DNA from: Dysidea avara
Lineage: Eukaryota; Porifera; Demospongiae; Dictyoceratida; Dysideidae
Length of the DNA stretch: 64,000 nucleotides
Direction: 5' to 3'
NCBI RefSeq assembly: GCF_963678975.1
Contig: NC_089276.1
Coordinates: 2,997,445 to 3,061,444, forward strand
Below, piece by piece: positions 7,014 to 55,729 of this stretch (positions are counted from its first letter, which is position 1; each line of letters starts with the position of its first letter). The notes under the pieces are model-generated. The model ran no database searches and was not told where the DNA came from. It saw nothing but the letters and a program-made list of their open reading frames with translations. The translations under genes and the position numbers were made by a program.

Positions 7014-7057
7014 GTCAAGTTTGCTATCATCTTTTACATTGTCATCATTTTCTTCTA

Positions 7058-7720
7058 CTATATCTTCTCCCCATAATTTTCTTCTACATCACCAAATGAC
7101 ACATTGTCCCAGTTATCACTCTGCACTAGTAAATCTTTCATACCCAGATCTTCAATGAAATTCTTGGCTTTTTGCAATGCCGATCTTACAGCCTCTTCTA
7201 TATTTGCATTTGTAATGGTCTTTACAGAGTGTTGGTTTTCTCTATCATTACTCTTAGCAGTGGTGTTTGGGAAAATGATACCAGTGCTACTGCTTTGAGA
7301 CTCTATCTCAATTTGAATTTGCAATTTGTGAATCCTCCTTAGCAAGCCAAGAATATTGAAATTCACCATTGTGGAAAAGGTAGGAGTCATGCTCCTAGCA
7401 GCACGGAAAACTTTTTCGCATGGCTGTGAGCCAAGCAACCACGGGCAAAAGAGATAATCAGCTCCAATTGATTTACTTCTGTCCCTTAATAGCATCAGAA
7501 GCAAGATTAGTGCATGAGCATTCAGCTCAATACAAATGTAACTATTTAACGAAATATAGTTGGTACTGTATTTCTTGCAGCAGACGATCCACTGCCTCCA
7601 GTATCTTGTGAAAAACAGAGCAAACCAGGCTTCTTCTATGCGACGCAAAGGACTCAGCTGCTTATCTAAGTAGCTGTCTAAAATGCTTTTCATCATCTGT
7701 ATGTAACATCTTGTACCCTT
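7058..7720 (-). pseudogene. Transposase C-terminal part (putative catalytic Glu region)
   Basis: This is the same frame as 7721-9262, separated from it only by an in-frame TGA at 7721-7723. It contains RIEEAWFALFFTRYWRQWI and then LGSQPCEKVFRAARSMTPTF followed by STMVNFNILGLLRRIHKLQ. The QPCE Glu lies where RNase H-fold transposases often carry the last catalytic acid after a helical insertion; that placement is inferred. The end runs into an acidic segment and then out of frame. Confidence 0.7.
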
Positions 7721-25545: not shown

Positions 25546-26369
25546 GCTATTTATATTTCATATTTGCTAGCTTCATAAAGCGTTGACTAATATATCAGTA
25601 AGTACCTGAGTGCTCTATTAGGGTGTTCTATTAGAGTGTTTTGATCTTTTCCATGATTGATTGACACGGGGAAGGATTTACAGGTAAATATTGTACTGGC
25701 ATTATGTCACAGTGCTTGCATGATGCTTAGGCATCTATCATTCCCAAAAACACACCAGCATAACCGGCCAGTGCCTATCACGACTCGGATATATATTTTT
25801 AAAATTAATGCTGAAAAAGTGTCCTCCAGCCCTGGCCTTATATGGGATAACAGCCTAGCTAACTGTGACATAAATACATTTATAAAATGTTGTGCAAAAG
25901 GGGTACACTTCTGAAAACCTAGTGATGATTCTTTCTGCTCCAAGTCTTATCCAGAGTTTTATCAGATAACTGTACTTTTCTATAGCCACATTTATTGTGA
26001 TTGACAAGGGAAATGGGAAAATTGCTCTCCAGAGTAAGAGTAATCCAAGCTACGTAGTTCCTCTGCATCAAGGATGATGAGCTCAGCTTCAGTGGTGTAT
26101 GGGGTAAATACTGCATCTTCACTGTACATGAAATTGGTAAGAGTGCAATAATTATCAGTGTATGTAAATAGTTGTAGGAAATTGGGTTGAGAGGCATAAA
26201 CAATACGCTGCATGTACCACCCACACTGACTCACACCACACACCACATTCGCACATCACACTATACACAATACACACAAAATACAGTTGTACACGCTTCA
26301 GTACGTACTTGCATGTACATACACACTACATACCACACTATACTTGATTATGAGAGAATATGTTTACAG
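25546..26369. other. Intergenic stretch
   Basis: It holds two partial copies of the CTCTATTAGAGTG-type motif (25611-25645) and a CA-rich low-complexity tract (26225-26340). No gene seen. Confidence 0.4.
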
Positions 26370-26476
26370 CAGGTAAAGCTCTAGAGTCATTGGAGTATTA
26401 TGTTGGCGTTTACAAAGATGGCACCCCTAGATCACGCAGTGACACTCATCATGGACGTAATGGTCAAGGATCAGCA
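26370..26476 (+). pseudogene. Possible orphan beta-trefoil exon (third paralogue remnant)
   Basis: A candidate exon lies between TTTACAG and GTAAGT. It starts in phase 1 and ends in phase 0, exactly like the third-repeat exons of genes A and B. The 35 complete codons include GKALESLEYYVGVYKDGTPR, which lines up with GFIALESSKNPGQHVGIRPD in gene A but is 27 nt shorter. Downstream, from 26589, the sequence matches what follows the last exon of gene A. No sister exons were found upstream. Remnant of a lost tandem copy is the best reading; chance resemblance cannot be excluded. Confidence 0.4.
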
Positions 26477-30870: not shown

Positions 30871-32431
30871 TAGTCTCGCGTGGCCAGACCCTTTCCGCGC
30901 AGCCGCTTATCGATTGGAAATTATAAGCGCCGCGCTACAAGGGTCTGGAATAGTTCACGGACTTAAAAAAATCTACAATCCCCAGTGGTTGGGGAGTGTA
31001 AATTGGCTCACGCGATCCCTTAATCGCCAAAGTGATCTGATTACTGAAGAATGAGCTGAAGAAGGCCTCTGGGGATGACGAGTATCGACCCGTGTAGGTT
31101 TTTCCTTCTACCTACTACTGAATCTTCAACAAGTACGGCTGAATAAAGACAAACAAGCTCAGTTCATCTCGAGTTACAAGGAAAGTAGGCGAAAGGTTTT
31201 CAGCGGATTTGTCGATCAAAACAGACTAAAGGATCACTACTATTTTGGCTAAAATCATTTCTGAGTCACAGATCACAATACGTTATTCTAGATAACCACA
31301 AAAGTGATACCACCCAGGTCCTTTCTGGTGTACCTCAAGGCACGGTTCTTGCCCCTCTATTGTTTTTGATTTATATTAACGACCTACCTTTTTCCATCCA
31401 CAATAAGATCAAACTGTATGCAGATGACGTATTGTTGTATTCTCGAATAACATCAATTGCTGACTGCTTAAGCTTACAACAGGACTTAGATCTACTTGCT
31501 CAATGGGCCAACAGATGGAAGATGACATTCAATATCCTGAAATGTGAGTTCCTGAGAGTAACAAACCAGCGCAATCCTATCTTGCACACATATTATATTG
31601 AAAATTCTCCCATTAAGGAAGTTCCATCTACCAAATATCTAGGGGTCACCATCGACAACAAGCTTACCTTCAATGACCATATCCAAACAATCACCAATAA
31701 AGCTAACCAAATCAATGCCTTTATTTACAGAAACCTGCGCCACTGTCCAAGCACTGTGAAATGTAACTGCTACAGAAGTATGGTCAGGCCAGTGCTTGAA
31801 TATGCATCATCTGTATGGGATCCCCATACCTTAAATAATATTAATAGAATTGAAGCAGTACAGAGAAGAGCGGCCAGATTTTGCCTAAATGAGTTTTCAA
31901 GTTACTCTAGTGTTACTAACATGCTAAGCACACTTAACTTACCCCCTTTACAACAAAGAAGAGAGAGAGCTAAACTTATAATGATGTATAAAATTATTAA
32001 TGATCTTATTGATATCCCCAAAGAGTACTTTACCCCTAATGATTCGCGATTAAGAAAAGGATACTACAGGCAACTGACGACAAACATTGACTCGTATAAA
32101 TTTTCCTTTTTCCCCTCTGCAATTAAACTTTGGAACCCCCTACATAATTAATTCCCCTTCCCTGGATAATTTTTGTAACAACTTAAGTAATTATATCTGT
32201 GCATTATAATCATTTGTGATTTCTGCACAGTAAAAACAAATAATAATAATAAAGATTCAAGGGAACACACGTTGCATTTTGTATCTTAGGCGTTACCCAA
32301 TCATTCAATTGTCACCAATAACGTGTCGAAAAAATTCATGTTCATGAACTATTCCAGACCCTTGTAGCGCGGCGCTTATAATTTCCAATCGATAAGCGGC
32401 TGCGCGGAAAGGGTCTGGCCACGCGAGACTA
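30871..32431. mobile_element. Foldback element with identical 87-bp ends carrying a LINE fragment
   Basis: The arms 30871-30957 and 32345-32431 are exact reverse complements over 87 bp. They start TAGTCTCGCGTGGCCAGACC and end GGTCTGGAATAGTTCA. Direct repeats GGAAACCCC (9 bp) flank the unit at 30862-30870 and 32432-32440. Each arm can also fold on itself (CCAGACCCTT with AAGGGTCTGG). A 9-bp duplication fits Mutator-like elements. Perfect arm identity points to a young insertion. The interior is a 5'-truncated non-LTR retrotransposon fragment. Confidence 0.85.
31216..32151 (+). pseudogene. Non-LTR retrotransposon reverse transcriptase, C-terminal part
   Basis: The frame is open upstream of any ATG and reads LKSFLSHRSQYVILDNHKSD, VLSGVPQGTVLAPLLFLIYI, then KLYADDVLLYSR with the catalytic YADD. 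YLGVTIDNKLTF and VRPVLEYASSVWDPH are typical of the thumb and connection region of CR1/Jockey-type LINEs. The endonuclease and the first half of the polymerase are missing. After the stop comes about 110 bp ending in a TAA-rich tail (AATAATAATAAT). No shifts within the remaining frame. Confidence 0.85.
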
Positions 32432-32845: not shown

Positions 32846-35800
32846 ATGGATGATCTTGGACCTTATCACTCTGCAGGAGTAAGGATTGAATGTCTGGTAT
32901 TATCGCACTGTAATCGTTTTTTAGAGTTTACTGCGCGATGGAGCCGTAGTCTCGCTGTGGTCGAAGACACGTGGTACACACGTCTTCATCAACGACGAAG
33001 GACATGTTCACGGAGACGGACAGCGTCACAAGTCAGGTTAGCCAACTCTAGCAAGTTGTGTATTGTGGTGACCTCAGGCCACTCCAACTTGATTTCCTGC
33101 TTCCCGTCCACCGAATTCCATTACTCCGTAAACTAACGTATTCTATGTATCATGTGATTGTTTTAGTCCGGATTCTTATCACGATTGACCACGTAGCGAA
33201 GGTATACTGATAAGCTTGTAGGTAACAGCTTTATGAATATTCTACCTTTTAGTCATGTACAAAACATGTACACAGAAGTAGTTAACATAATGGAATAATG
33301 AATTCTCCACCCACTTGCATGGCAAAGTTTGGACTGGAAACAGGAAATCAAGTTGCAGTAGCCTCACCTGATAGGAAACCACATCCTAGAAAAGGTCAAA
33401 GGTGAACAAAATAAAATTTTGCTTGCTGTCCCCAGTGGTTTCTTGTCTTGTGGTTGAAGTGTTCATTACCCACCACACAACTATAGTCTCACGTGCCAGA
33501 CAGTTTGTGTGGGGGCCCAAATAAACTGTCTGGTCACTGTTGCACACATTCCGTGACCACTGCCAGAATGTTGGCAGAGCCAATCAGATCACTTCGTGGA
33601 CTCTGTGACAAAACAAATACTAATAATTCAAATTCTTGGTGGAATAAATAACTGAATCTCAGCTACAGATTATTTTTTCGAAAGTTTAACAATGCCATGG
33701 GCTTACGATCTTTGTTTCCCTAGTACAGGGCTCTTAAAAGCGTTGGTATAAGAACGATTATGGTTCACTATGGATTTGTAAAACAGCAGAATTGTTGAGT
33801 GTTCAGCAATGTTTCGAATACGTCACCAGGACATTACCAGTACAATTATCGTCTTAGTCTGCTCACAGAGGTGATTGAAATGATTATTACATCATCCTTG
33901 GTGCAAAACAATACCGTGATGTAATCTAATTGCATTCCAGTGAGTTCACTGAAAGTGTGCAACAGTGACCAGACGATTTATTTGCCGCCCCCACACAAAC
34001 CGTCTGGCATGCGAGACTACCACACAACTAGTCCAGTCAATTTATGGTTTAACCTTTAACTAATTGCAATGCAAGCTTTTAAAACAGTTTCTGGCTTAGA
34101 AAAATGTGCTCTATAACATATATCAAAAGTCTTACGGAATCCCATTAGGGGAAAGTGACCTTTTGGTGACCTTTTAAAGCCATTTTTTGGTAAAATTTGA
34201 GATTTCTGTCTATATTTCATTCATATATCAACCAAATTAGTCAAACTTGGTATCAAGTGAATGGTCTCAATGAAAGGAACAATGGGACATTTGTTTGAAT
34301 TTAATAGCTCATTTCATTCAGAAGTTATAGCCATTTTCTGGTCAAAATTTCCCCGTCCATGCAAATACTTAATAATTTTTGCTCTGCTGTTATTTTCTAT
34401 GTTATAGCATTGAAAAATAAATGATTTAGCCATAGTAAGAAACATGGTTGATGGCAAAGGGTAACTATGAATCCTCTAGTGTTGGTATGTTGTCATGGAA
34501 ACCAAATCACTGTTGGAATTTGCAATAATATAATATAATTATAAACATGGTAAATAATTTGTAAGAAAGTACAGAAAGTGTACTTCAATTATCGTCATCC
34601 TCGAGAATAAAAGTATCAACATTGGTACAAGCTGTTCCCTTACAATTGCCACATGCAAGAGAACATTTTGCATTATACTTCTTGCATGTACACCTTGTAG
34701 TGCTACGCAATTACACCTTGATTAGACCATCTGGAGCTGGTGCTAAATGGCATTAAAGTCCCGTCAGACTCTTTCCACCCCATTCAAGTGACTGAAATTC
34801 ACTGCTGTGTCCTTTTCACTCCTGTACTTGTAAGTATACACAGAAGCTGTGGGATTTGGCAGCTGCCAAAGTAGGTGATGAAGAAACCTAGTATTTGTAG
34901 CTACTTTCTCACAGAAGCAATTATAATGTAAATAGTCCAATGTTTCTATTGTATAATGTCACCAAGCTTGCTCACCTGTAGTAATCATGTCTTTTGGCAT
35001 AGCTGATGATGCATAAAAGACTTCTGCTTGCTCTCAAAAGTGTTCACTTGACCTGAATTTCTTAAGTGAAGCACCTTTTCCAGTACCATACAGTTGTGAA
35101 GTAGTATCACATCCAAGTATAGCATGACGGAACAGAAGGTTTTTGCATATCTCAGGACCAAGTTTCTGCTTAACAGTGCTATGTTCCACACTCTAGGTTT
35201 CTTAGTGGTTTATTTTGCTCAGGCTTAAAAAATATGGCATGAGAATTTAAGCAGACATGATAGCATAACAATACTAAAAGGTCAGTGTCATCACCTACTA
35301 GTGCAGTGTCTGTTACTATGGCTGATTCTGCAACTTTCTGTACAATCATCACATCAGCATCTCCCAGAGAATAATACATTGCAATTCCTTCTTTCTAAGT
35401 GATTGCCAAGCATATTAATGAAATGCTGCTTGTTGCCTCATGGTACGAACATTGACACTGCACACTCTATGATAGACTGCATCTGCTGCATGAAGATCAT
35501 GAACATGCAATATTCTTGCCTGTACTGCATCTGCCGGCCCAATCATCTCCCTTCTCGTGACACACTGCTAGAATTGTGTCTCGCATCTCATTTCAATTAC
35601 GGCTATAACTTCTGAACATTTTCTCTTCTGTCAACAATAGCTGGTTCATCACAAAAAAAGCAGTCAGTGTCAACATTAAAATCCCTTTGTGTTGACCTAA
35701 GCATACGCTCACCAGTGTTTGTATTTGTTGCTTTGCCTGGTTCTCCTTCTTTCACTCTTATTTGTATTTGTTGCTTTGCCTGGTTCTCCTTCTTTCACTC

Positions 35801-38800
35801 TTAAAGTTTTTGCTATTTGATCTACTTTTCAGTACTGGCGACGACATTCCTGGCACACCAACTGCCCAGGTACACAATGCACAGCATCTCCTCTCTCTTC
35901 ACTAGCTTTGTTGATAATTGCACATACCTTTTCACCTAGGGTAACTTTGGATAATGCTTCAATAGGTTGATTGTAAATGACACACTCTTCTGACACCTCC
36001 ATTTCTTATCCATTGAGATCAGAGGATGACACTTTAGCCACTTCAATTGTCTCACAAACCTTGCCATACAATAAAACAAGAAAGCTGCAAGGATTGTCAT
36101 GCACGTAGCTATAGTACTAATTTGATTTCCCTATGACTGTTCCAAGTGAATTAAAAGGTATTGAAGCAGTCTAAATTATAAATGTCTATGAGCAGGGGCG
36201 TAGCCAGGGGGGGGGGTTCAAAGGGTTCGGACGAACCCCCTTTTCAGAGTTAAGTTTTTTAAATAGTGATACTGGTTAACTAGAACTGAATTAACTTACA
36301 CAAATCCACTGAAATGGGTAGCTACAGGTCTTCAGGCAGAGGAATTCAAGTACCTCTACTCGCTATTGCGAATGAATTTATAAGAATACACATGTTTACA
36401 CGTGTACACGTGTTTACATGTGCACACCTACGAAATAAATGAAGCGTAAAAGTGCTACCTCAGGTGGCATTCTAAAGTTTTTTTCGAAAAGAATCCATGC
36501 AGAATCTAGAAGGCCAGATTCTAGTAAGTTGTAGCACATAGGCATATTTCTTTGCAAGAATTTTGTGGCCCCCCCGCTGTGGAGATTCTATACTTAGGGC
36601 AGAACCCCCCTTTTGGAAATCCTGCCTACGCCCCTGTATGAGTATGTCTAAATTTTTTAATAGTGCATCACAAATCATAGTAACACAAATATAAAAGTTT
36701 AGCAGAAAAACACAGCATTTATTAGACACCTACCGCGTTATTCTTCGATATTCTGTACAGCAACAAAGAAAGACACTGTTTCTCTTCTTTATAATACCAA
36801 GTAAACAACAACATTAGTTATCATGACAACAATTATTGGAACATTATTACCCAGCTATAATCATGATAATAATCTAACTCTATACTACTAGAAAAGTTGC
36901 CAGACATATTGTTCTGCAGTTAGTTGAACAATAAAGCTAAGACCTTTAGAGTTGAGCTTTTTGCTTACAGCTGGATGCCATTTGTTGACATGAATATGAA
37001 TATACTTTATTTGTACTTACCATTACACTAGCTACATTCACATAGCAATAAAAGTATACAGTTTGCGATACAATTAGTGGATCTGTGCAGCCTTCTGTAG
37101 AATGACTGCTCTGCTCCAAACAACTAATGGTACACTCTGGTTTCCATGGCAACATTTAAGTCTGAAAGTACTGCAAACTCCTTTTTCAGTCTTTTTCACA
37201 ACATAAAGTGTGCTTCAGGCAACAAAAGAGCACCACTACATTGAAAACTGTAAAACTAATTATGTGCATGGACAAGCCCAATTTTGACCAGAAAAACTGT
37301 TATAACTTTTGAACGAAATGAGCTATTAGATTCAAACAAATGTCACGTTGTTCCTTTCAGTGAGACCATTCACTTGATACCAAGTTTGACTAATTTGGTT
37401 GATATATGAATGAAATATAGACGGAAATTTCATTTTTGCCAAAAATGGCCAAAAAAGGTCACCAAAAGGTCACTTTCCCTTAATGGGATTCCTTAAGACT
37501 TTTGATATATGTTATAGAGAACATTTATCTGTGCCAGAAACTGTTAAGAAAGCTTGTGTTGCAATTAGTTAAAAGTTGACCACTTTTTTTCCATAAAATG
37601 ACTGGACTAAACCTGGAAGTGGTCTAGAACAAGTCGGTTTTTTGCTGAGACAGTCACAAATAACAGCTGACTTGTCCCCTAGCAACCTCAAGTACCAAGT
37701 AGAGTGTCAGTTTACAACATATTTCTGGCTTCTTTACCTGATAATTACATCACCAATTAGCAGTAGCCCAATTATGGTAAAGTATGAAGTCCATGCCTGC
37801 CCATAAGGTGGCCTGATTTCCAGCTCACCTTTGAGATCTTCAAGTTCAAAACAATCCTTTGCCAATGTGTATGTGTGAGAGTTTCTATTGTTGTAGCTGA
37901 TTGGAAAGTACATGAACGAGGAGATGGGGTAGTGGCCTTCCAGAATGAACAACATCCTGGCAAGTGGCTGCGTATCAAAGATGGTGAGACTAATGTTGGG
38001 GTAAGCAGCAAACTGAGATGTGTGTACAGTCTCTGAGGTAGTCTTGTGTGCCTGTGTGGGAATGGCAAATATATACCATCTGGTCCACACATATCTGGTA
38101 TGCAAGACAACCTATGGTAGCCTTTCTGATTCAATGTAACAGCCATTATATTGACTTCTAAATGAGATACGAATTTAGTATATATGCTGTTTCAATTTCA
38201 AAGTTGAAACCTTTAAAAGGCTGGTTTTTCCCAAAGACAGCCGCATTCAGTCTACTTCTAATAGGGTGATGGTGGCCTCTTTTGCAACTTCATAGTCCAT
38301 GAACTCGGTGAGTGAACTGGTAGTTTATCGTAATTTGACCCTCCATCATACAGAGGGGTTTATTGCACTGGAGTCAAGCAAGAACCCTGGTCAACATGTT
38401 GGTATCCGACCTGATGGTACAGTAAAGCCACCGACAGAGACAGGCAAAGGAGAACATGGCCAGTTTGCAGTGATAATCAAATCAAAGGTAACTACTCAGT
38501 GATAGTTGACACACAACTAGCTCTTCTACTCTAGGGTCCCCATCATAAGCCAATGATGCCATCTGCTCATGTGAGAAATCAAACTGTGATCTATAAAATG
38601 CTCACCATCAGATCCTTTAGCTACTGAAACAAGGAGCACATGTTCACTTGATCAGCAAGAGTTGTGGACGAGGAATTCAGAATGAGATTGTTGATGTGAC
38701 TGGAAATGCACGAAGTGGACAATGGAGTATGTGTGTGTGTGCGTGTGTTTGTTGTAGTGAGCATAAATGACTGGGAACACTACGTGACGTGTGTTATGTT

Positions 38801-40933
38801 TAGTGTTAAAAGGTTGGGTCAATCCAGGTCACATGGGTATATGGTTTAGTGAGTTTTATCAGCATGATAGAATATCCAAGTCAACCCCACTTATGATTTA
38901 CCATATAGCCAGAAATTTTCGGGGGACAAAACTATCGTGAAATCATGATTTTCACGTGCTTTTTTTTTAATTCACAAAGGCCTAAAAAACATTTGCTTAG
39001 GTAGTAGCTACATGTATTTAACCTCAAACATCAAACATTTTACGGCTATATTTTCATGAAGCTGTCAATACTCGTGAAATTGTGAAAATTTGGTCCATCG
39101 AAAATTTCTGGCTATACAGTATTTCACCAAGATGGTGCTTATACGTTATAAGTGAAAGCAAGAGGACAAACTGAAGTCTAAGAGCAGTTTTCAATTACAA
39201 GCAAATGTGACTGTCTACACAAAAAGCCTGGCATGTTCACGTTTCAAATTCCATTTGTTGGCTGTTGTCTATCAGTTGGAGTGGACTGCCAAAGTTTCAC
39301 ATTAAATAGTCTTTCAGTTATATAATGTAGAGGATAGCAAGTAACTGATAATGTATTAAATGTAAGAATGAAAATACAACTGCCTTGTTTTTTTCTTGCT
39401 CCAGAACTTGTTCTAGTTGCACTTTTAAAATGTCCAATTCCTGTTAGCCCTGTGAGCACTTCAAATCAACAATGTAATAATGATAACTAATTAGGGTACT
39501 GAGTTAGTAGCAAATTGGTGACCACTACTTGTCATTTTCGAATGCTGATATCTTTATAATGGTTTGGCTTTTTTTCACGAAAATTTTAATTCATATATAT
39601 CAAACCTCACCGAACGTCATTGATAGTTTGTACAGGCACACATGGAATATTTTTAAGCAGTGCTATTAGTGCATTGCAATGTGAAACCTTTTTGTGCTAT
39701 AAAACTGTTGTGTGTACCAAGTGAATGTTGTTCCGTATAAGCCCTACACACAGCAACAACATGTTTTTTGTCATGTGAACTTAGATGGCAACAACACATT
39801 CAAGCAATTGATACACCAGGACCCATGTAAACTGATACAATTATATTATACTCCAATCAACTAGTTTTCTTCCCCAGGTGCTCGTAATGGATACCTGCTA
39901 TTAACTAGAAGGCAAAAATCATTTCTCCATGTCTCACAAAGGGGTGGAGGTTCAGGTGGGTCCCAGACCTTCGCCTGTGAGACATGGTACAGCCTCCTGT
40001 GGGGGGTTACTAGGACTGCCTCGTAGCACCTGAGTAGTGCACAGTTGGCCCAATCAAGTGTGTAGGTAATCTGGACTGCTAACTGACCTCCTCTTTTCTT
40101 TTTATGACATCATTGGTCAGCAAGATAGAGTCTGGTGAATTACTGTTGGCATAGTTGTGTTCACAGATGAACAGTTACCATAGTTTCTTGCTGTTCAATG
40201 AAATTAAATCCACCATATTTCGGTGGAAATTCACAACTTTGTCAGCACTAATTCGCCAGACCCTATTTCACGACGTCACCAAAAATAGAGGAGACAAGAT
40301 AGCGGTCTGGCCATGTGAGACTACTGTGTAGGTGTGACCTTGTATACAGTAGCAGTAGCCAAAGGCTTTGCATGCGTATGTGTTGTGTGTATGTGGTGTG
40401 TGTTGTAGTAATATGTTGTGTTCTTCAGGTGTGTTTGTTGTTGAGGTGAGGGGATCAGGCATGATAGCCCTCCACAGCATGAAGGAACACAACAAGTACC
40501 TGCGTATTAAGGATGGAGAGTTAAACAATGGTGGCACTGGAGGAAAGTGGTGTGATTTTTATGTGCACGGTGTCGGTATGTGATGAAATGTGAACATGTA
40601 ACTGTAATTACCACTTCTTTATGCACCACAGAAAATGGATATGTAGTGTTTGAGTCTTGTCAACATCCAGGGTCACATGTGGGCATCTTGCCTGATGGTT
40701 CTGCTAAAAATCCCAGTGAGACTGGTGTGGGAGAACATGCACAATTCTGGGTGATCGTCAGTAAATTGGTAAGCGATGTTATTAAAGATGTCTACTGTGG
40801 TGTTTCCTGTCTTGTGTTCCAGCCTGATCCTAATGCTCTGAGTGCTTCTGTACCTGAAAAACAAGCTACACCTGTAAAACAAGCTACACCTGTAAAACAA
40901 GCTGAACCAGTAAGTGTTACTGTAAACATGTAG
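32846..40933 (+). CDS. Gene A: two-domain beta-trefoil-like protein (10 exons)
   Basis: Unnamed family. Exons: 32846-32878, 32925-33036, 37897-38000, 38265-38307, 38354-38487, 38535-38570, 38621-38726, 40429-40575, 40632-40768, 40823-40909 (or read-through to TAG at 40931-40933). All junctions are GT-AG; 313 codons join without a stop. Three repeats per domain: AVVSLWSKTRGTHVFINDEG; VAFQNEQHPGKWLRIKDGET; EGFIALESSKNPGQHVGIRP, then again LLKQGAHVHLISK, GMIALHSMKEHNKYLRIKDG, ENGYVVFESCQHPGSHVGIL. Each repeat ends in a hydrophobic strand (WKVH, FIVH, FAVII), as in beta-trefoils of the fascin/FGF/ricin-B type. No signal peptide or membrane segment, so a cytosolic protein or unconventional secretion is possible. 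The last exon has VKQATP repeats. Intron 2 is 4.9 kb because transposons sit in it. Paralogue B continues into two more domains; A may end here or be truncated. Confidence 0.75.
33076..33363. mobile_element. MITE in gene A intron 2
   Basis: Inverted ends AGGCCACTCCAACTTGATTT (then CCTGCTTCCCGTCCA) and the matching right end at about 33330-33363. Related to the AGGCCACTCC family at 27142. The gene B intron reads straight through at the same point (GTGACCTCG at about 43220), giving an empty site. Confidence 0.75.
33484..34019. mobile_element. TAGTCTC-type foldback element in gene A intron 2
   Basis: Ends TAGTCTCACGTGCCAGACAG and complement TAGTCTCGCATGCCAGACGG, with arms of about 75 bp reaching TGGTCACTGTTGCAC. 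Flanked by the 11-bp direct repeat CCACACAACTA (33473-33483 and 34020-34030). The termini match those of the 30871-32431 element, so it is the same superfamily. Absent from gene B. Confidence 0.8.
34600..36150 (-). pseudogene. XPG-like nuclease protein remnant of the Academ-like element
   Basis: Reading 5' to 3' on the minus strand: zinc-binding pieces (LVCQECRRQY near 35850, DCFFCDEPAI near 35650); a nuclease-like block at 35179-35379 (GDADVMIVQKVAESA and VGDDTDLLVLLCYH with the paired acids of PIN/XPG domains, then KPEQNKPLRNLECG); a degraded block in another frame that still shows LGCDTTSQLYGTGKG; and a Cys-rich tail at about 34600-34720 (CTCKKYNAKCSLACGNCKGT). Several frameshifts and stops separate them. 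A 43-bp direct duplication lies at about 35717-35802. Presumed DNA-cleaving accessory protein of the transposon, now dead. Confidence 0.6.
36193..36636. mobile_element. hAT-type MITE nested in the Academ-like element
   Basis: Ends CAGGGGCGTAGCCAGG and CCTGCCTACGCCCCTG, flanked directly by TATGAG on both sides (6 bp; hAT usually gives 8). Subterminal G/C runs pair as well. No transposase. Confidence 0.75.
38904..39116. mobile_element. Tc1/mariner-type MITE in gene A intron 7
   Basis: Ends TATAGCCAGAAATTTTCG and CGAAAATTTCTGGCTATA. The homologous gene B intron (about 44830-44880) lacks it. Confidence 0.75.
40070..40321. mobile_element. Gene A-specific insertion with TAGTCTC-type right end
   Basis: The intron matches gene B up to GTGTGTAG and again from TGTGTAGGTGTGACC. 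The 250 bp between are absent from B. The right end reads GGTCTGGCCATGTGAGACTA, like the foldback elements at 30871 and 33484; the left end is degenerate. Confidence 0.55.
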
Positions 40934-42984: not shown

Positions 42985-45900
42985 ATGGCTGGTTTTGGGC
43001 CTTGTCACTCTGCAGGAGTAAGTATTGATTGTTTGGTATTATCACACTATTTGACCTCAATTGTTTTTTTTTTTAGAGTTTATTGTGCGATGGAGCCGTA
43101 GTCTCGCTGTGGTCGAAGGCACGCGGTACACACGTCTTCATCAACGACGAAGGAAATGTTCACGGAGACGGGCAGCGTCACAAGTCAGGTTAGCGACTCT
43201 AGCAAGTTGTGTGTTGTGGTGACCTCGTACGGAACCGCATCCTAGAAAGGTCAAAGGTGTAGACCCCTGGTTTCCTGCCTGCTGTCACTTACCCACTACG
43301 CAACCTGGTCTTGCTTGTTTCAGCATAAAACTTTTGGGAGTGAACACATGTTCATCTTTTGAGTACCATGTTTGTGTGCCAGAATTTTGTTTGCTAAATC
43401 TATGGGTGTTTTTATCTTATGAAATAACAGCTGACTTGTCCTCTAGCAACCTCAAGTTACAAGAGAAATCTGTTTACAACATAATGTAGGCTTCTTCACC
43501 TGATAATTGTATCACCAATTAGCACTAGCCCAATTATGGTAAAGTATGGAAGTCTATGCCTGCTGGTAAGGTGGCCTGATTTCCAGCTCACCTTTTGATA
43601 TCTTTCAAGTTCAAAACTTTAATGCATTAAGTGTAGAACATTTTAAATCTTTACTATATCTGTATAATATTATAACTATAGTGTGCTTTTTATACTCAAT
43701 TTTGAGGTCTTGCATAGTAATAAATATAATAACCTTTTACCAATATGCATGTGTGAGAGTTTGTTGTTTTAGCTGAATGGAAAGTACATGAACGAGGAGA
43801 TGGGGTAGTGGCCTTCCAGAATGAACAACACCCTGGCAAGTGGCTGCGTATCAAAGATGGTGAGACTAATGTTGGGGTAAGCAGCAAACTGAGATGTGTG
43901 TACAGTCTCTGAGGTAGTCTTGTGTGCCTGTGTGGGAGTGGCAAATATATACCATCTGGTCACTTTCCACACATATCTGGCATGTATGAGAACTCCAGTC
44001 TTAAAGCCTTTTTGATTGATATATCAATGTGACAGCCATAACTTGACTTCTGAATGAGATATACAAATTTAGCATATTATTGTAGAATTGTTCAATTACA
44101 TTTGAGTTAAACTTGAAACTTTTAAAAGTTTTAAAAGGCTAGATAACACTGGTTTTCTCAGAGACAGCCACATACAGTCTACTTCTAATAGGGTGATGGT
44201 GGGCCCTTTTGCAACTTCATAGTCCATGAACTTGGTGAGTGAATTGGTAGTTTTTCTCTCTTGTAATTTAATTCTCAATCATACAGAGGGGTTTATTGCA
44301 CTGGAATCAAGCAAGAACCATGGTCAACATCTTGGTATCCGCCCTGATGGAACCGTCAAGCCACCGACAGAGACAGCCAAAGGGCAACATGGCCAGTTTG
44401 CAGTGATAGTCAAATCAAAGGTAACTACTCACTGATGGTTGACACACAATTAGCCCTTCTACTCTAGGGTCCCCATCATAAGCCAATGATGCCATCTGCT
44501 CATGTGAGTAATCAAACTGTGGTCTATATAATGCTCACCGTCAGATCTTTTAGCTACTGAAACAAGGAGCACGTGTCCACTTGATTAGCAAGGGTTGTGG
44601 ACGAGGAATTCAGAATGAGATTGTTGATGTGACTGGAAATGCACGAAGTGGACAATGGAGTGTGTTACGTGTGTGTGTTGTAGTGAGCTCTGGGTAGGCT
44701 GTATTGAGTTGAGAGTTAAATGACTGGGAACACTACACTTGTAATGCGTGTTATGTTTATGGTTAAAGCCATGTTATCTGGGTTATCTGGGTCACATGGG
44801 TAATATTTTGTCCTGGTTCAGTAAGTCTCATTGGCTTCATAGTCAAAGATTATGTTTTATTTTGCGTATACGTTATAATTGTGGCAGGAAAACTGCTCCT
44901 AGACTTCAGCTTGTCCTCTTGCTTCCACTTTATGATAAGGCACCATGTTCACATTTTAAATGCCATTTTGTTGGCTGTTACCTAGCTAGTTAGCTAGTTA
45001 GCTAGTTACAAAGGAGTGAACTGTTGAAAGTTTCACTTTCAGTTATATAGGGGACAGCATATGGTGTCAAGTAACTGATAATGTATTATATTAAGAATTA
45101 AAATCCTGCCGCCTTGTCTTCCAGCTATGCTTCAGAACTCATTCTTTAATAATGTGTGTCCAATTCCTGTTAGCCATTGTGAACAAGTCAACAGGAAATG
45201 TAATAATGCTAACTAACTAATAGGGCTGTACCAATATTATGAGTATCGGTATTGGTCAATTGCAAGTCTACTACAGATATTTCACTCAAGTTATGCATGA
45301 CGTGCTGAGTGAAAACTGGCCGTTTTCACAAAATTCTATTTTGCCATGGTTTCATATTGAAATATACTGGGTAAAAGTACACGTGCTACATGAAAATTTT
45401 ACGCACACTTTAATCACGTTTGTATGCACTGAAATTAAGCTCAAATCTATACACCAATGGATTCGCCTATTTATGGAGAATAAGAAAATCTTTTGTTTCA
45501 TGTTCGCACAGCAAAGGATATGTGAGCTATGGGTGCTTAATTACAATGCGGTAAAAACAATGTTCACCATCGTCATTTCTTAGTTTGAATGGCCTTCTTT
45601 GTCAACATGGAGGAGTACAGGGAAAGCACTATACCTTAATTGATTTACCAGTTCATGGTGCACAGATTGAGCCAGTCCCATCTTCGTAGCTTGTTTCAAT
45701 CATAAGTTATGATCAATTATCTAAGTGCCTGTAATTTATTTCCCGTATTGTTGCTGTACAAATCACTGTTCCAACTGTCAGGTACTATAACTCCAAGATT
45801 AATCACAAAAGGCTGAAACTTTGGCTGCATGTCCACACTTTTGTTACTATAGATAATTAGTGAGATGCAATAAAATGGAATAGACCAGTTCATTTAATGC

Positions 45901-48900
45901 GAAAGTATTTAATTGCTGTGGTATTTGCTATTGTGCAATACTGGATGCTGTGGTTAGCCATGAAAATGTACAGAAACCATTGGGAAACCACGGGAACTAA
46001 ATCCTTTGTTACACAGAAAGTAAAGAAGATATCCGTGTTTTGAAGACAGCATGGAAAACTACATTAATTTCTACACCTGATGGTGGTTGTCTGCTGCTTC
46101 TAGGTGTAGCGATTGGTTATGAGCAGCGAAAAAGTTGTTTAGTGACAAAGCAGGTGTTTGTTTCTATGTTTATATGGAATACCAACACTAAAACAAGTGT
46201 TAGGATCACCTGGATAGTGTTTGCTGACTCACTAAACATGGTGTTTGCTTGTCGCCCCGTTAAGTCCAATGGTGATCAGTTCTGAATGGTTTTCAAGTAC
46301 AAACTCACTATTACCAGCCATGGAAAGCGTTGTTCAGCAAAATCCTAAACTTTACGGCTCTATAACTCGCTCATCCTTAACCCTATTCACAGCAGACAAC
46401 CACGAAGCGAAAGACAAATTAATGTAGTTTCGCTCTATGTACAGAGAATTGGAACATACCGTATACTTTGTAAGTAATGGAGATTTAACCATCGATTATC
46501 ATAGTTTTCCCAATGGCTTCAATACATTTTTATGGGCATCCACAGCATCCAGTTGTTACGTCATACGCAATTAACACTAATTGCATTTTTAAGGTCCTTA
46601 AATGAACTGGTCTATTCTAGGAATGTGCAAAAACAGCCAATTTTTGCTCAGCCAGTCACATATGCACTATCAAAGTAGTACAAGTACCATGAAAAAACTG
46701 AAAAGCACCTTACTGGCTGAAGTGACTTAGTTGTTAAATAGTTGTTAAATGGTAGAGCGCTTGACTATATAGCCTTGGGTTCAAGCACCAAGCTGTTTTG
46801 TTTTGTTTTTTTCTGAGGGTTTTTGTGCCACTTTTTTTGTTTTTAAACCAGGCGCACGCCCACAGCCAGCCTTCGGTCGGCTGTGGGCGTGCGCCTGGTT
46901 TACTGAAATTGTTTTCGTAAAAGTGTGTGTGTACCTATCTATCTACCTATCTACCTATGTTTGTCCGTACGCACCCACGTGAGCAAAATCGTTTAATAAC
47001 GGCAAAAGCAGCTTTTACGTAAGAAGTAAAAGTGAAATGAAGTCTGTATTAAACTTCTGCACAGGTGAACTTTGCTCTGAGGTGGTTTCTTTTCGGCGGA
47101 CTGAAATACGGGTGTGGTGACTTTCCTCAGACTACCTTCCCATTGAGGTTTTCAGGCATTTAGCAACTGAAAAACAACGGTGCAGGCCTCGTACACTGCC
47201 AGGAATAGCCTATCGCTTCGAGTTGAAAGGGGGCGTATCCCTTACGTACGCGAAAGAAAATGAAGAGCAGCTTTGAGGCTTTGTTGAGAGAATTTGTGGG
47301 AAAAAACACGTTAGTCACACTATAAAACAGTTTAGAAGATAGTTTTGTGCGTAATATGTTGGTAAAAGCGGTTTATTTAACAAACGCTTCCTTAGCAGTG
47401 CATAACAACGTAATTGAACGAATTACGAATATTTCATAATTTACGAAATATGAGAAATAGCTAATTATATTATTGCACAACCCAAACTACCCTATTGTAA
47501 AGTAGTAATACATAGTTGGTTAATTCATAGTAGTATATACTGTCTATAGTTATTCCAGATGAGTTAGCTAGCTGCATGGCGCCTGGATTTTAGAAGTAGC
47601 ACAACATCAACTTGTTTTAATGGCAGATTTTTTTTGTTTTATGATTTGCACAGACCTGTTAGGGTAAAAACCTTTTGTGAACAGTCATAAGTACCAATAA
47701 ATAAAAGGATTACATTGTTGAAAAGCATATGAATTGTAGTAATTAAACACAACCATAGTGATCATGCTACATGCTCTGTTATACTGTAATGCATATCGGT
47801 TCAACTTTGAAGTATCGGCTCTGTATATGATATCGGTTTATTAGAAAACCTATATCGGAAATAGACAATAAATATCAGATATCAGTATTGGATGTAAAAT
47901 GTGGTATCAGTACAGCCCTACTAACTATTTAGACTACTGCATTGGTGGTAAATTGGTGACCACCACTCGTCATTTTTTTCAAATGCTGATATCGTCATAA
48001 TGGTCTGGCTTTTTTTCACGAAATTTATAATTCAATTATATGTATCAAACCTCACCAAACTTCATCGATATTGTGTACAATAAAACATTGGCGCACATGA
48101 AATATTTTTAAGCATTTCTCTTAGTGCATTGCAATGTAAAACCTTTTTGTGCTATAAAACTGTTGTATGTACACTGTACCAAGTGAACGTGGTCCATATA
48201 AGCCTACAGCACGTTTCTCATGTAAACGTAGACGGCAACAATAATACCTTTCTTACCATTCAAGCAGTTGAGTTATACCTACACCAGGGCCCATGTGAAC
48301 TGATCTGTGTTATACTCTAGTTTTCTTCCCCAGATGCTTGTAATGGTACCTGCTATTAACTGGGGGGGCAAAATTCATTTCTCCATGTCTCACAATGTAT
48401 GGAGATTCAGGTGGGGCCCACACCTACATGGTACAGCCTCCTGTGGAGTACTAGTCCTGCCCCAAGAGAATTTGCCAGGACTGCCTAGTAGTACCTGAGT
48501 AGTGCAGATGGCCCAGTAAACTGTGTAGGTGTGACCCTTGTACACAGTAGTAGCCAAAGGTTTTGTATGTGTTTGTGTTTGTTTGTGTGTGTGTGTGTTG
48601 TGGGAGGCAGCATAGCCAAGTGGTTAGGGCATCTGCCTAGTGATCCCCAGGTTCAATTCCCGGTTATGCCACTTTGGTGTTGTTTCGTTGAGCAAGAAAC
48701 TTTACTCACATTGCTCCAGTCTACCCAGCTGTTAAAGGGGGCCTGGTGTCAACTGGGGAAACAGAAGCAGCCCACCCACGGCCAGCTGTAACATCAATGG
48801 GTGCCTGATATTAACTGGGGAAGCAAATGCCGAACTGTCCTTGTCTCACTTAGCAGTGTTGAGGTCATTGTGGAACTTTGGGTTCCGCGACCTCCATGAG

Positions 48901-51900
48901 ACCTAGACAGTCCTCCTGCAGGTTACTAGCCCTGCCCCAGAAGGATTTGCCTGCACAAGGCTCAAGTGCCTGAGTGGTGCACAGGAATCCCAGTGCTGGT
49001 TCACTGGGCGGCAATAGCTGCACTTCGTACGGCTGCCGTAGGCTTTGCTCCTTTGCTTTGCTTTGCTCTGTGTGTGTGTGCAGTGTGTGATGTGTGCTGT
49101 CAAGTACTAATATGCTGTGTTTCTTCAGGTGTTTTTGTTGTTGAGGTGAGGGGACCAGGCAGGATAGCCCTCCACAGCATGACGGAACACAACAAGTACC
49201 TGCGTATTAAGGATGGAGAGTTAAACAATGGTGGACATGGAGGAAAGTGGTGTGATTTTTATGTGCACGACGTCGGTAAGTAATGAAAAGTGATATGTAT
49301 GTAACTGTAATTACCAGTTCTTTATGCAACACAGAAAATGGATATGTAGTGTTTGAGTCTTGTCAAAATCGAGGAACACATGCGGGCATCTTACCTGATG
49401 GTTCTGCTAAGAATCCCAATGAGACTGCTATGGGAGAACATGCACAATTCTGGGTGATTGTCAGTGAAATGGTAAGTGATGTTATTAAAGATGTCTACTG
49501 TGATGTTTCCTGTCTTGTGTTCCAGCCTGATCCTAATGCTCAGAGTGCTTCTGTACCTGTAAAACAAGCTGGACCAGTAAGTGTCACCTTGTGTAGTGTA
49601 CAAGCTGTAATGTAGCCCCTGTTTATTTCATGAGGTCTGAGGTGGTTGTCATAAAGTTAGAACAGGTTTCAGTACACACCATGAGATTCACTATCAGTTT
49701 AGAATTATATCGATCAATGGTGGGGTAGTCTATAGATATGTTAATTGTAAAGTTTCAACATACTGCACTGTATAATAAACACAGTGGTAGGTGGTTTTTG
49801 GTTCTATACTGTTACAAGTTGTCTTGTTATTGTTTCACTATACAGTGTGCTCTATCAGATGGGACTGTAGTACACTTGTTCTCAAGGGACAGTGGTGCTT
49901 ACCTCCATCTTGGTGATGATGGTACCTTGACTGCTAAGCAAGGGACCACAGACAAGAGAAGTGAGTTGTGTATGTCCACGTCAGTGGGTGTGTAACTTAG
50001 GCTAGTCCAGGGTAAGTGTTACAAGAATTAAAACTTGGGAAATAGTATCTAATGCTTACTGTACAGTGCTGTAATCACTGTGTAGAAGCCACCTTTTCAT
50101 GTATTGTACTATATAGTCACAAAGATTATCTAGTTGATGTATTCAAATATATAACCATAGCAACAGTACTGTTGTAAAGAGCATGGCTGAGGTTAACTCC
50201 ATGAGAATTAAGATCCCGTCTTGTGTGTTCAGCAGGATAAGCTTTCTGGCAACTTAAAAAATGAGCATACCATGTGCTACAGGAAAAGGAGCCATTTATC
50301 CTTACACAATCACATTGATCATGTGAACTCTTGATGATGACATGTGATGAGTTAAACTGACACCTCTTGTCTGAATATGATTATGATTATGTTCTTTATG
50401 TTACTCTGATGTCATGACAACCACTTGTTATACTGGTGTATATATATAAGTGACACTGGTCCTGATCTGTTTGGTTCACAAATAGAGGTGGTCTCTTTTC
50501 TGAGGTAACATAGTTTGCAGTTTTTTCAGCTACTGTGAGATTAGTTTAATGTAGGCAGCTCACCTACTTCACTGAACTTTCGTTATCCCAGACTCTATGA
50601 AAAAGAAAAATCAGTTACCATTTGGAGGGAAACTTTGGCACCGTTAGAATTTGGCGAATGACCATGAATTCGCCAAATTTTCCCCATCCAAATATTTTGG
50701 TGGCAAAGAAAATAGCAAACCAAACCTCAAACTAATCAATTTTCACCAAGAGATAGTGGGCTAGTCATTACGCTAGAGCCAAGCCTGCCTCAACTACCCT
50801 AGCTAGTTACTGTACATGTGGTATCCTTAAACTTCATTCGAGGTCGCCTAGTTCGAGGTGCACCTCGAAACGGGTGCGACAAGTAGCGAGTCCTACCATA
50901 TTAGGTACGATATTCACTATTCCAGAGGGTATAGATCTACTGTCTATATAGTGTCACCTTTTAGTTGGTAGCTGACTCCAGGAGCCGAACAGCTGATAGG
51001 CGTGGCACTCCGGTTCTCGCTTCAGGCACAGCGAATAGGGATCTAATTAATTCAATAGGGCGTGCGCTTTGCTAACAATTCGCCAACAGTGATATTTTGC
51101 TTGATTCGCCCGCCAAATTTTCTCCCCTCCAAAGTTTCCCTCCGTACAGTACTAAAGTGTGACCTCACAGTTAAGACTTTCAATTGTTACTACTATAAAG
51201 AGGTACAGGAGTTTTCTTGTCATATGGATCCCGACTGTTGTTGGTACCAGTTTCTATAATATGTGACTATATATATTCTCAGCAAAACCCCAACTTTGCA
51301 ATTTTTTAAAACCAGGTGCACACCTAGTACTGAAATGGTTTGGCTAAAACTGTCTGTCTGCATCTGCGTGTAGGTATGTCTGCCCAACACCCACATGAAC
51401 GAACAGGCTTTGAGCTACAGAAAAAAATCTTCATTGAATGAATAACGGTTGTGTACGCACTGTATAACTTTTATTGTGTGGCCGATAATTGAAACCAGGT
51501 GAAACAGTTTAGTAGGGGCTAACCTATGTGCTGTAACATGCGTATAACAACTCAAAAACAACATAATAGAAATTGTAAACTACCAGGAATGGCATATCTT
51601 CAGTTGAAAGGGGGTTTATGTGAACAGAAATTAAGAGTAGCCATGAGGCTCTGTGTAGAGAATTGGTGAATTGTGAAATACATTTAATTTTAATGTATTA
51701 TTACAAAACAAGACAAGAAATTAATTAATGTGCTGTGTGTATATAATAAAAGGAATGGTATTACTGGGTGCCTGGTAGCACTGCAACTTATTTTAGTTTG
51801 TCAGTATTATCTGCAGAGTTCAAGGAATGTATCACCAAAGTTTCAGCCTTCTGTGGTGAGTAATTTTGGAATTATAGTGCTAGCTAGACATTAGGAAGAG

Positions 51901-54900
51901 CAAGAAATTCAATTTGTAAGGCGATTATGCTGAAAAACAGGCACTTGCATTTGCAGCCATAGTTTCCATTTGCATTAGTCAACAACATTGGAATTCGCTT
52001 AAAATGTTGACCATGGATTAGCAAATCAACCAACGTATAGTGATAGCTATGTAGTCACTTATGCATATGGGTATGAAGGCGCATGTGGTTTAGTTGAAGA
52101 AAGACGATATTGTTTACGTTTACTACATCGTAAACAAACACACATGACACGCATACCGTTGGGGCAACACAAATAGTTTCGAACTGGCGAATGAGATGCT
52201 ATATAGATTTGAGTTTTCTTTCTCTGAGTAATGGCCTTATATAATATTTTTATCTTTGTAGCATGCTATTTTACGATTTTTTAAAAAAAATTGTTTTTCT
52301 CAATATGCATGCTCGTGCAAATAAGTTGTGTTTTTGCTAGAATGTATGGATACATGTATCATAATGGCTGGGTTACATGTGAAGGATTATTGTGTACGTA
52401 TTATAGCAGGGGTAAAGTCGTCAGTGAAATGATATATTATGATGTGTTATAGCTGAATGGAAGGTACATCATCGTGGTGAGAACATCGTAGCATTCCAGA
52501 ATGAGGAACATAAGGGAAAGTGGCTACGTATCAAAGACAACAGCACCAATTGTGGGGTTAGTTATAATCCACTTATTCTACTGATCACATAATCTTGTTT
52601 ACAGGGAGACGGAGGAAATTGGTGTAACATGCATGTGCACACTCATGGTAGGTATGGTAACTGTTGCCATAGTAATGGTTTAGGGACAGTTTTTTTAGTT
52701 GAGATTTTGTATGTTTAATTAGGATTTGGTACTTAAGACTTGTTTTTTGAAAGTTGTTTTTAAGTGCCATATTATAGCTGCCCTTGTTTACAAATGTGTT
52801 CTTTTACAGATAATGGTTTCATCTCATTGGAATCTACCAAGGTCCCTGGTCAACATGTTGGTGCTAATGATGGGAACATAAAGCCACCTAACCACACCCA
52901 CACTGGTCTCCATGGACAATGGCATGTGGTCCTTGATGAAAAAGTATGGTGGTCATTAATCAGAGTTGTTGTTGATTGTCTCTCTTAGGCTGATCATAAA
53001 CAACAACTACCAACAACTCCTGGTACCTCAGTGAGTAATAATTGTTTTGATGTGTCATGTAGACTGTAATTGATATTGGAGGCTGTTAGGCTGATATTGC
53101 TGTTTTGTGAATAGAAAAGTTTCTCACAGCTTGGGTCAGCTTATAAACCACTCAAGCCCTGCATGGCCGAACCCAGCAGTGTTATAAGTGGAGTTGAGTA
53201 CTGTACTAGAATATGTAATAGTTGTATCATGTACCTGAGTAATTTGTCTGATATGTACACCCAAGCTGAGAGCGTGGGTGTACATATCAGGCAAATCACA
53301 AGGGCACGTGATACAACTGATATGTACCATGTAGGCTAATGGCCTACTATGGTGGGCGACTAATCACCCAAGCCAATACGAGGCAACCTGCTGGATTTAT
53401 TATATAGACAGTCTTTTAAAATTCGATTATGGGTCAGCAACAAGTAACACTGCAGTTACGTTTGTTAGCATGAACAGGCAAATCCTATGAATATCACAGA
53501 AACACTCAATTTTGCGATTTAACAAGTGTTTCAAAGTTGCTACATCATTTAACCACTGTTTACAACGTTTTCTAAACGTCCAGAGGGATAAGCTTCGCTG
53601 TAGAGTGGTTACCTCATGATATACAAAAAGTGGGCGTGGTACATAATCAAACACGCTGACACGCGATTGTAAATTAACCATGACACTAGTTCTCACCTTA
53701 AACTTCTGTTTGTCAACTCATAGGGTGGTAAGGGTGGCGAATCGCCTCTGTCTGAGTGCTGTAGAATGCAAAATCGGGTTCATGGTTTTCATCACGTGGG
53801 CAATAAAACTCCCACAATCGAATACTGCCAGGATTCTTATAAAAACAAACAACGTTACCTCATCAGATATCAAGGGGAGCCTGTATTCCGCGGAATAGCA
53901 GAATTATGGAATAAGCGAAAATCACATTCTAAATATTTTTTTACTGTTTATAGCCTCTATAACGTTTTAATATACATTCCTCACCTCGATGGCACCGATC
54001 CTCGGGGCGATCTTTAATAGGATATGTAAAAAGATATTCACTCTAGCACAATCTAACTAAGCTAAACTACCATCAAATACACTTCACTACACAATTGCTA
54101 AAAACTAGAAGTTCTTTGTGCTATACGTACTCATACCAGCTGTCACACACGAGTAACTGCCCAAATTTATTAGAGTTATATACGAAGTGTTAGAGCCGAG
54201 GTTGGAGCTCTGATGTTGGGAGCTGAAAGCAGTATTATCCTCCGAATTTATTTGAAACACTTTAGGAAATGGTAACAGAGTTATAAGAAAGGTCATTATT
54301 CCATGCATGCAGGGTAGCTACCTAGGGGGTGTATTATTTTGTCCTAAACTATTCGGCCAGTTAGCTAGCTAGCTGCTCATGCGTGACAGCTGGTATGAGC
54401 AAGTATAGCACAAAGAACTTTTAGTTTTCTAGCGATTATGTAGTGAAGTGTATTTAACAGTAGTTTAGCTTAGTTAGATTGTTCTAGAGTGAATATCTTT
54501 GTACATATCCTATTTTAAAATTGCCCCGAGGATCGGTGCCTTTGTGATTATGTTCTCTATGAGGTGAGGTATGTATATTAAAATGTTATAGAGGCTATAA
54601 ACAATAACAAAATATTTAGAATGTGATTTTTGCTTATTCCGTAATTCTGCTATTCCGTATTCCGCAGAATACAGGCTCCCAATATCAAGGCCATGGTACC
54701 AGCCATGTTTAACTTAAATGTACCATGGCAAGCCAGAGTTTAAAAGAAATGTACCCTGGAATTTTCCTTTGAAGTTAGGTGGTTTCATGGTACATAATAC
54801 AAATGTACTGGGGAGCTGCAGGTTATGGGTTGCATAGATAATATTCTGATTCGCCAAAGTTGCAGTACCATGTTTTATAGCATAGCTATGCTATCCTATT

Positions 54901-55729
54901 AGCTCAATTATCCGTTGCTATCAGCCACTTTAACTACCTTGTATATGCTGTGGAACAAAGGGGCTAGTCTTATTGAAATTAGGGGGACAAGGAAAATCAA
55001 AATATTTTGTGGTAAAGCATCCTATTAGAAGTTTGTGTAGTAAAATTTGTGGTTAATATACAAACCCACATCCTTCCCTGTTGTGTTAATCACATGTTAA
55101 TTATGTGACATTATTATTGTGTATTAGTTCTTGAGGAATGGTGCCATTATTGTGTTGTGCTCTCGGGCTAATGGTCGCACACTGATGGCTTGTGGTGATG
55201 ATCGCAACTCTGTGAAAGGTAACGGAGGTACAGGACATTGGGGTAAGTGGTATGATACACTACAGCTGTAGTGATGTGTGTTTGTAGCCCAATACAAGGT
55301 GATTGTTAAAGAACCCGGTATGATTGCTCTTCAGTTTGAGAAGAATCATGATAAGTTTCTGCGCATCAAAGACAACCAAACTGACCTTCGTGGACGCTCA
55401 GGTGGTCCATTCACCTACTTCTATGTCTATAACAATGGTGAGTTGTTGTCAGTGTAATAGTGATGGTGATTGAGTTATTGTAATGGGGGTACACACCCAT
55501 ACACCTGACATAGTACCATTTATTATTATCCCACCTCACCAGTGAATGGTACTATCAGTCTGGAGTCGGTAAAACATCGTGCACAACATATTGGGATCAC
55601 TGGTGATGGACAGTTGAAGCCGGCTAATGAAACTGGTACTGGCAAACATGCTCAATTCTATCCCATACTGGTAAGATATGGTGTGCTGTAACTGGAGTGT
55701 AATTATTGTAATGTGTTCAACAGCTGTAA
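42985..55729 (+). CDS. Gene B: four-domain beta-trefoil-like protein (18-19 exons)
   Basis: Exons: 42985-43017, 43077-43188, 43773-43876, 44192-44234, 44287-44420, 44468-44503, 44554-44659, 49129-49275, 49335-49471, 49526-49576, 49846-49960, 52453-52556, 52605-52647, 52810-52943, 52989-53030, 55128-55242, 55288-55437, 55543-55670, and probably 55724-55729 (Leu-stop). All are GT-AG and join as 578 uninterrupted codons. Domains: 1 starts VVSLWSKARGTHVF, 2 LLKQGARVHLIS, 3 CALSDGTVVHLFSRDSG, 4 FLRNGAIIVLCSRANG. Second repeats carry GKWLRIKDGET-type and third repeats LESxKxPGQHVG-type motifs. Linkers GPHHKPMMPSAH, PDPNAQSASVPVKQAGP and ADHKQQLPTTPGTS are each one phase-0 exon. Four trefoils in about 580 residues recalls fascin (four trefoils, about 490 residues), but the sequence is not recognisably fascin; actin binding would be speculation. 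No signal peptide. An alternative end by read-through adds VRYGVL. Confidence 0.8.
45878..46617. mobile_element. MITE nested in the hAT-like element
   Basis: Inverted ends GAATAGACCAGTTCATTTAA, 740 bp apart. No clear duplication or coding sequence. Confidence 0.7.
46843..47620 (+). mobile_element. Dispersed hairpin-headed repeat, copy 2
   Basis: A near-perfect hairpin (TTTAAACCAGGCGCACGCCC with its complement at 46880-46902) is followed by CTATCTACC repeats and CACGTGAGCAAA, as in copy 1 at 21871. It lies inside the 45221-47920 element. Confidence 0.6.
48604..49014 (+). mobile_element. tRNA-derived SINE in gene B intron 7
   Basis: The head has pol III boxes: A box TAGCCAAGTGG (48613-48623) and B box GGTTCAATTCC (48650-48660), about 37 bp apart. 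A conserved SINE body follows (GAGCAAGAAACTTTACTCAC, then CTACCCAGCTGTTAAA). The 3' part resembles 48360-48510 and the gene A intron at 39920-40050, so an older partial copy predates the A/B duplication. It is not a functional tRNA gene: the cloverleaf is poor and the body is long. Confidence 0.75.
50624..51143. mobile_element. MITE in gene B intron 11
   Basis: Ends GGAGGGAAACTTTGG and CCAAAGTTTCCCTCC, with further pairing through TTTGGCGAAT / ATTCGCC. No target duplication is clear. Confidence 0.7.
51305..51900 (+). mobile_element. Dispersed hairpin-headed repeat, partial copy 3
   Basis: AAAACCAGGTGCACACC, then TGAAATGGTTTGGC, CACCCACATGAACGAACAGG and GTTGAAAGGGGGTTTATGTG follow the order in copies 1 and 2, but the hairpin's right arm is lost. 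Confidence 0.45.
53217..53317. repeat. Hairpin (about 45-bp arms) in gene B intron 15
   Basis: AGTTGTATCATGTACC to TGATATGTACACCCA pairs with TGGGTGTACATATCA to GGTACGTGATACAACT-like sequence, with a loop of about 10 bp. Few mismatches. Confidence 0.75.
53875..54681. mobile_element. Foldback element with about 300-bp arms, gene B intron 15
   Basis: Arms 53875-54155 and 54375-54681 are inverted copies, starting GGGAGCCTGTATTCCGCGG. They share ATGGCACCGATCCTCGGGGC-type blocks with small differences. Flanks GATATCAAG and AATATCAAG match at 8 of 9 bases, suggesting a 9-bp duplication. No coding sequence. Confidence 0.8.

Follow-up and report, generated by a model that had tools for sequence, protein, structure and literature searches.

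A sponge gene for four consecutive beta-trefoil domains nearest to the FGF family, with relatives in vertebrates

What kind of protein is made of four consecutive beta-trefoil-like domains whose motifs had seemed foreign to the known trefoil families? This question is raised by a gene of the sponge Dysidea avara, located on the forward strand of a stretch of 64,000 nucleotides from contig NC_089276.1 (the window). The gene extends from a start ATG at 42985 to a stop TAA at 55727-55729. Its product almost certainly has the trefoil fold. Among the families compared, the protein family to which it belongs is nearest to the fibroblast growth factors (FGFs) by sequence and structure, and its domain number is common with fascin.

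The first splice of the gene gave 18 exons and 567 amino acids, in frame and with AG/GT at the internal borders. An extra in-frame exon of 36 bases (44468-44503; AG acceptor, GT donor) was added because P0001, an uncharacterized D. avara protein (isoform X1), holds a 12-residue linker that is absent from this splice; the linker is also present in an upstream tandem paralogue. The final model comprises 19 exons with 1740 bases, which encode 579 amino acids plus the stop. The original prediction of eighteen exons and 578 codons was right about the gene and fell short in the count by roughly an exon and a codon. P0001 has 578 residues and is 84% identical over 100% of the query, which rules out that the exons are a chance reading. 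It contains four trefoils over its whole length and corresponding linkers, and differs in nothing of substance. Judged by sequence, it is an orthologue or close paralogue of the four-trefoil protein, and together with the tandem paralogue it supports the exon joins. A D. avara protein with Pfam FGF and Fascin domains is already in public databases; the P0001 entry carries no assigned function.

Exon 1 (42985..43017) contains the start codon and encodes MAGFGPCHSAG, which matches the P0001 N-terminus MADFGPYHSAT. Domain D1 is encoded by exon 2 (43077..43188; repeat 1), exon 3 (43773..43876; repeats 1-2, with GKWLRIKDGE), exon 4 (44192..44234; end of repeat 2) and exon 5 (44287..44420; repeat 3). 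It is followed by the added exon (44468..44503), which encodes the D1-D2 linker GPHHKPMMPSAH. The three repeats of D2 correspond to the exons 44554..44659, 49129..49275 and 49335..49471, and the D2-D3 linker to 49526..49576. D3 is composed of 49846..49960 (repeat 1), 52453..52556 (repeats 1-2), 52605..52647 (end of repeat 2) and 52810..52943 (repeat 3, LESTKVPGQHVG), and is joined to D4 by a linker encoded at 52989..53030. P0001 has linkers similar to the last two. The repeats of D4 lie at 55128..55242, 55288..55437 and 55543..55670. The terminal coding exon (55724..55729; Leu-stop) has an unusual-looking length of 6 bases; P0001 has the same ending, ...FYPILL.

A family profile identified the four domains with a per-domain independent E-value (i-E) of at most 1.2e-52 each; this profile was built partly from these same four domains. 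Each domain has three repeats that close a trefoil barrel. Furthermore, two AlphaFold2 (AF2) models of P0001 show four consecutive beta-trefoils, and the matches of these models in fold libraries, determined by means of Foldseek and VIA-align, are trefoils as well. The predicted tandem of four trefoils is thus borne out, as is, for the number of domains, the fascin layout. The best structural matches in VIA-align were FGF1 and FGF2, and all 50 entries listed were FGFs; fascin and lectins may follow further down. Among the matches listed, FGF is the natural solved fold closest to the models. In the Foldseek search, fascin was fourth for model 1, after three chains of a mosquitocidal toxin, and first for model 2, with the mosquitocidal holotoxin in second place. 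Other trefoil lectins ranked below fascin for both models.

The Pfam profiles served as an independent check. The whole protein reached 60.5 bits for FGF (PF00167; cut-off 24, E 2.1e-16) and 31.1 bits for Fascin (PF06268; cut-off 23.1, E 2.7e-7). RicinB_lectin_2 (PF14200) remained just below its cut-off, with 25.1 versus 25.6 bits, and the ricin-B family PF00652 was not among the Pfam matches. IL33_bt, which represents IL-1/IL-33, scored 16.2 bits versus a cut-off of 27. MIR (PF02815) had no match in the four-trefoil protein, and the relative P0023 reached 12.1 bits versus 25.6. On single domains, FGF scored above its cut-off of 24 for D2 (26.1 bits) and below it for D1 (20.6 bits). At E<=1, FGF matched 16 of 19 selected single domains (best E 6.7e-10) and Fascin three (best E 0.012); RicinB_lectin_2 matched four (best E 0.00082) and IL33_bt three (best 0.0041). 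The profile of these 19 domains (A6) was compared with the PDB, where the best 60 of 129 matches were considered, so that fascin may rank below these. Designed symmetric trefoils gave the best E-value, 3e-24, a score that may partly reflect their repetition, and FGF1 chains, some of them engineered, followed from 3e-9. With this family profile, natural FGF1 reached an E-value of 1.3e-6 and human fascin-1 one of 1e-3, versus 180 for the best of 40 shuffled controls.

The motifs are therefore less foreign than the original prediction had assumed for FGF, fascin and ricin-B proteins: two curated cut-offs are passed, most single domains match FGF, and the region GQHVGI...K....T..G..QF aligns with the heparin loop of FGF1. 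The trefoils and their fascin-like number stood, whereas the claim that the motifs are unrecognisable did not.

One study assigns the heparin-binding loop of FGF1 to turn T11 (PMC9062101). The corresponding sponge loop has kept its length and the pattern G..K....T..G. However, across the 22 residues of the loop segment the net charge is +1 in D1, -2 in D2 and 0 in D3 and D4, compared to +6 in FGF1; no basic heparin-binding loop was found in D1-D4. The pattern G..[KR]....T..G, which was picked after viewing the alignment, occurs in 22 of the 34 domains examined. It is missing from the first two domains of P0034 and of P0035, from P0023_1, from the vertebrate domains P0041_2, P0037_2 and P0025_2, and from all four domains of P0043. 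Shuffling produced it by chance 224 times in 20000 for FGF1 and 543 times in 20000 for fascin-1. The shared loop pattern is a hint, not a proof. The FGF signature PS00247 of PROSITE matched FGF1 and none of the 48 family proteins (0/9 in a smaller set). FGF1 has one domain, one trefoil per protein being an FGF trait, and the sponge protein has four; by these sequence features it is not a canonical FGF.

Three protein searches, of which the one that returned P0001 covered a database of 5.8 billion proteins, identified 46 relatives. Vertebrate names were carried by 29 of these, and two were sponge-named, namely P0001 and a partial protein of Geodia barretti (P0036). The vertebrate relatives come from mammal, bird, turtle and axolotl and are named oxygen-regulated protein 1 (RP1), LOXHD1-like, PLAT-domain-containing or uncharacterized. 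When complete, they contain two trefoils; several also contain PLAT and some doublecortin (DCX) domains. For the mammalian P0003, the E-value is 4e-16 at about 30% identity, and the motifs LRIKDG and LES.K.PG..VGL..DG..KP are common to the sponge protein and the vertebrate trefoil pair. In contrast to these RP1/LOXHD1-like proteins, the sponge protein has four trefoils, and no Pfam match to PLAT or doublecortin was found in it or in P0001. Profile A1 included P0003 trimmed to its trefoils and profile A5 contained no mammal, in both cases so that matches to PLAT were avoided. The searches reach proteins that have five-residue words in common with the query and a length ratio within limits, and one scored only the top word-sharing candidates. 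The gap between sponge and vertebrate relatives may therefore be one of search sensitivity. Peptide-pattern scans yielded 42 (P0023) and 127 (A8) matches in bacterial contigs and 43 (A1) in viral contigs; none was confirmed, and the few peptide patterns used may miss distant relatives.

By the family profile, P0023, P0040 and P0042 have two trefoils, P0002, P0034 and P0035 have three, and the divergent P0043 has four. P0035 (648 residues) has an acidic N-terminal region beginning MRGGEDGAMGNLCDCF in front of its trefoils; an internal Met in this region could start an acylated, membrane-anchored form. P0043 (718 residues) ends in a glutamine-rich tail and might connect the family with further groups of trefoil proteins.

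What might such a protein do? Tentatively, and at slightly less than even odds, we favor a cytoplasmic multivalent scaffold. In this case a soluble dysideid protein, composed of four FGF-type beta-trefoils joined by short linkers, would hold partners together by several similar surfaces. Each trefoil would display at least one loop surface for a partner in the cell cortex or the cytoskeleton, for which the actin-binding trefoils of fascin would be the model. Precedents exist for both elements: the FGF11-14 group for intracellular FGF folds, and fascin for trefoil arrays on the cytoskeleton. In function, FGFs activate an FGF receptor or, in the intracellular group, bind sodium channels. The N-terminus of the four-trefoil protein is not strongly hydrophobic. 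Several observations weigh against such a scaffold. FGF1 and FGF2 are exported without a signal peptide; the apparent lack of a signal peptide is therefore no proof of cytoplasmic location. The N-terminal region of P0034 is more hydrophobic (1.73). Pfam detected neither PLAT nor DCX nor any further targeting domain in the sponge protein. The two AF2 models have predicted template modelling (pTM) scores of 0.41 and 0.36, and their full-chain TM score is about 0.2; these values are too low for statements on domain packing, including the compact arrangement in two lobes that is typical of fascin. Finally, single human fascin domains are not significant against the family profile (best i-E 7.4).

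The strongest competitor of the scaffold is a true fascin-like actin bundler, that is, a sponge variant of fascin, which we regard as unlikely. It would account for the four tandem trefoils, the Fascin score above the cut-off and the first place of fascin for model 2; moreover, human fascin-1 carries GTLKAGKATKVG at position 238, with the same loop pattern. However, the sequence similarity to fascin is weaker than that to FGF, both in the family-profile E-values and in the three of 19 matching domains, and for model 1 fascin comes behind the toxin chains. In addition, relatives with two or three trefoils also exist, and with a full-chain TM of about 0.2 the models do not fix the domain orientation.

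Another candidate, for which the chances appear slim, is a multi-domain FGF-like signal that would be exported without a signal peptide, as are FGF1 and FGF2, and would bind receptors in a multivalent manner. It draws on the FGF affinity of the whole protein and of 16 single domains, on FGF1 and FGF2 as the best structural matches among those listed, and on the common loop pattern. The missing signature and the loop charge of -2 to +1 argue against it, as do the vertebrate relatives that carry doublecortin and PLAT on the same chain. A further reading, a soluble beta-trefoil lectin that would bind sugars at several sites of its chain and serve defence or the recognition of symbionts, is similarly improbable: multi-trefoil lectins are common, the mosquitocidal holotoxin with its ricin-type trefoils stands above or directly behind fascin, other trefoil lectins appear further down, and RicinB_lectin_2 nearly reaches its cut-off and matches one domain more than Fascin, but ricin-B matches far fewer domains than FGF, and the QxW motif expected in the repeats of ricin-B domains occurs once in 579 residues.

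From 15 of the 48 proteins, 34 domains were retained (at least 110 profile positions and i-E <1e-20, P0043 being exempt); this threshold removes the weaker first vertebrate trefoil. The tree was calculated from 30 of these domains, with P0043 left out. The Dysidea-type domains cluster (support 91/94, below the level starred by the tool), and the second vertebrate trefoils form a separate group (100/100). D1 and D3 are sisters (98/94), and D2 joins them at 89/83, again below the star. With these weak support values, the trefoil array seems to have expanded in the sponge lineage itself. D1 and D3 contain an additional intron behind ...G|GDGG, which D2 and D4 lack. A plain duplication of D1-D2 into D3-D4 is a candidate route that fits this intron pattern and the pairing of D1 with D3, but the tree does not unite D2 with D4.

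A two-trefoil paralogue of 320 amino acids (32846..40933, forward strand) lies 2 kb upstream of the four-trefoil gene in the same direction. Its exons are 32846-32878, 32925-33036, 37897-38000, 38265-38307, 38354-38487, 38535-38570, 38621-38726, 40429-40575, 40632-40768 and 40823-40933, where the last exon was taken past a GT donor at 40910 up to the first stop. Collinear DNA matches of the two genes stop at 40954/49636, just past the linker exon after D2; therefore, the duplicated stretch is the front half of the gene, and a tandem duplication left the two-trefoil paralogue. Over 852 shared exon bases, the two genes are 93.8% identical, and their 53 differences are distributed 16/15/22 over the codon positions. 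The nonsynonymous rate dN is 0.048 and the synonymous rate dS 0.126 (NG86), with a dN/dS of 0.38 (NG86) or 0.51 (YN00); the constraint between the genes is, by these estimates, modest. A phase-0 donor stands after 40909 in the last exon of the paralogue, and phase 0 is also the phase in which exon 2 of the downstream gene starts; read-through splicing from one to the other would yield a protein of six trefoils.

Further upstream, a decayed trefoil fragment in three pieces is located at 25982..26467 on the same strand (i-E 0.012, 0.00029 and 0.023), with a frame shift between the first two pieces. The window contains other open frames: one at 31189-32151 that encodes a reverse transcriptase domain (RVT_1, 4.9e-18) and marks a retroelement shortly before the paralogue; one of 361 amino acids at 24378-25463 with a weak match to a Tc5 transposase DNA-binding domain (16.8 bits, below the cut-off); a PHD finger frame at 5304-5858 on the reverse strand (6.1e-7); and, beside the latter, long frames at 5939-10193, also on the reverse strand, which belong to a gene or a mobile element.

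The family appears to be uncharacterised, as originally suggested: no characterised member was met among the proteins searched, and no report on the family among the literature titles and abstract beginnings listed. The repeats resemble natural FGF1 less well than its symmetrised designs (Symfoils). It is conceivable, if rather improbable, that an old family of intracellular FGF-type trefoils in multiple copies is common to sponges and vertebrates, that this family predates the secreted FGF ligands or is their sister, and that the secreted FGFs, perhaps also fascin, descend from such scaffolds. If this were true, the heparin loop would have turned basic later, and the near-symmetric repeats would have stayed near their ancestral form. 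According to one study, FGFR docking proteins are absent from sponges, ctenophores and placozoans, which agrees with an origin of the FGF receptor in eumetazoans (PMC7260276). A sponge four-trefoil protein with vertebrate relatives would mean that the FGF fold has a history independent of FGF-receptor signalling. Moreover, it would provide a simpler relative for studying the apparently uncharacterised trefoil module of the vertebrate proteins.
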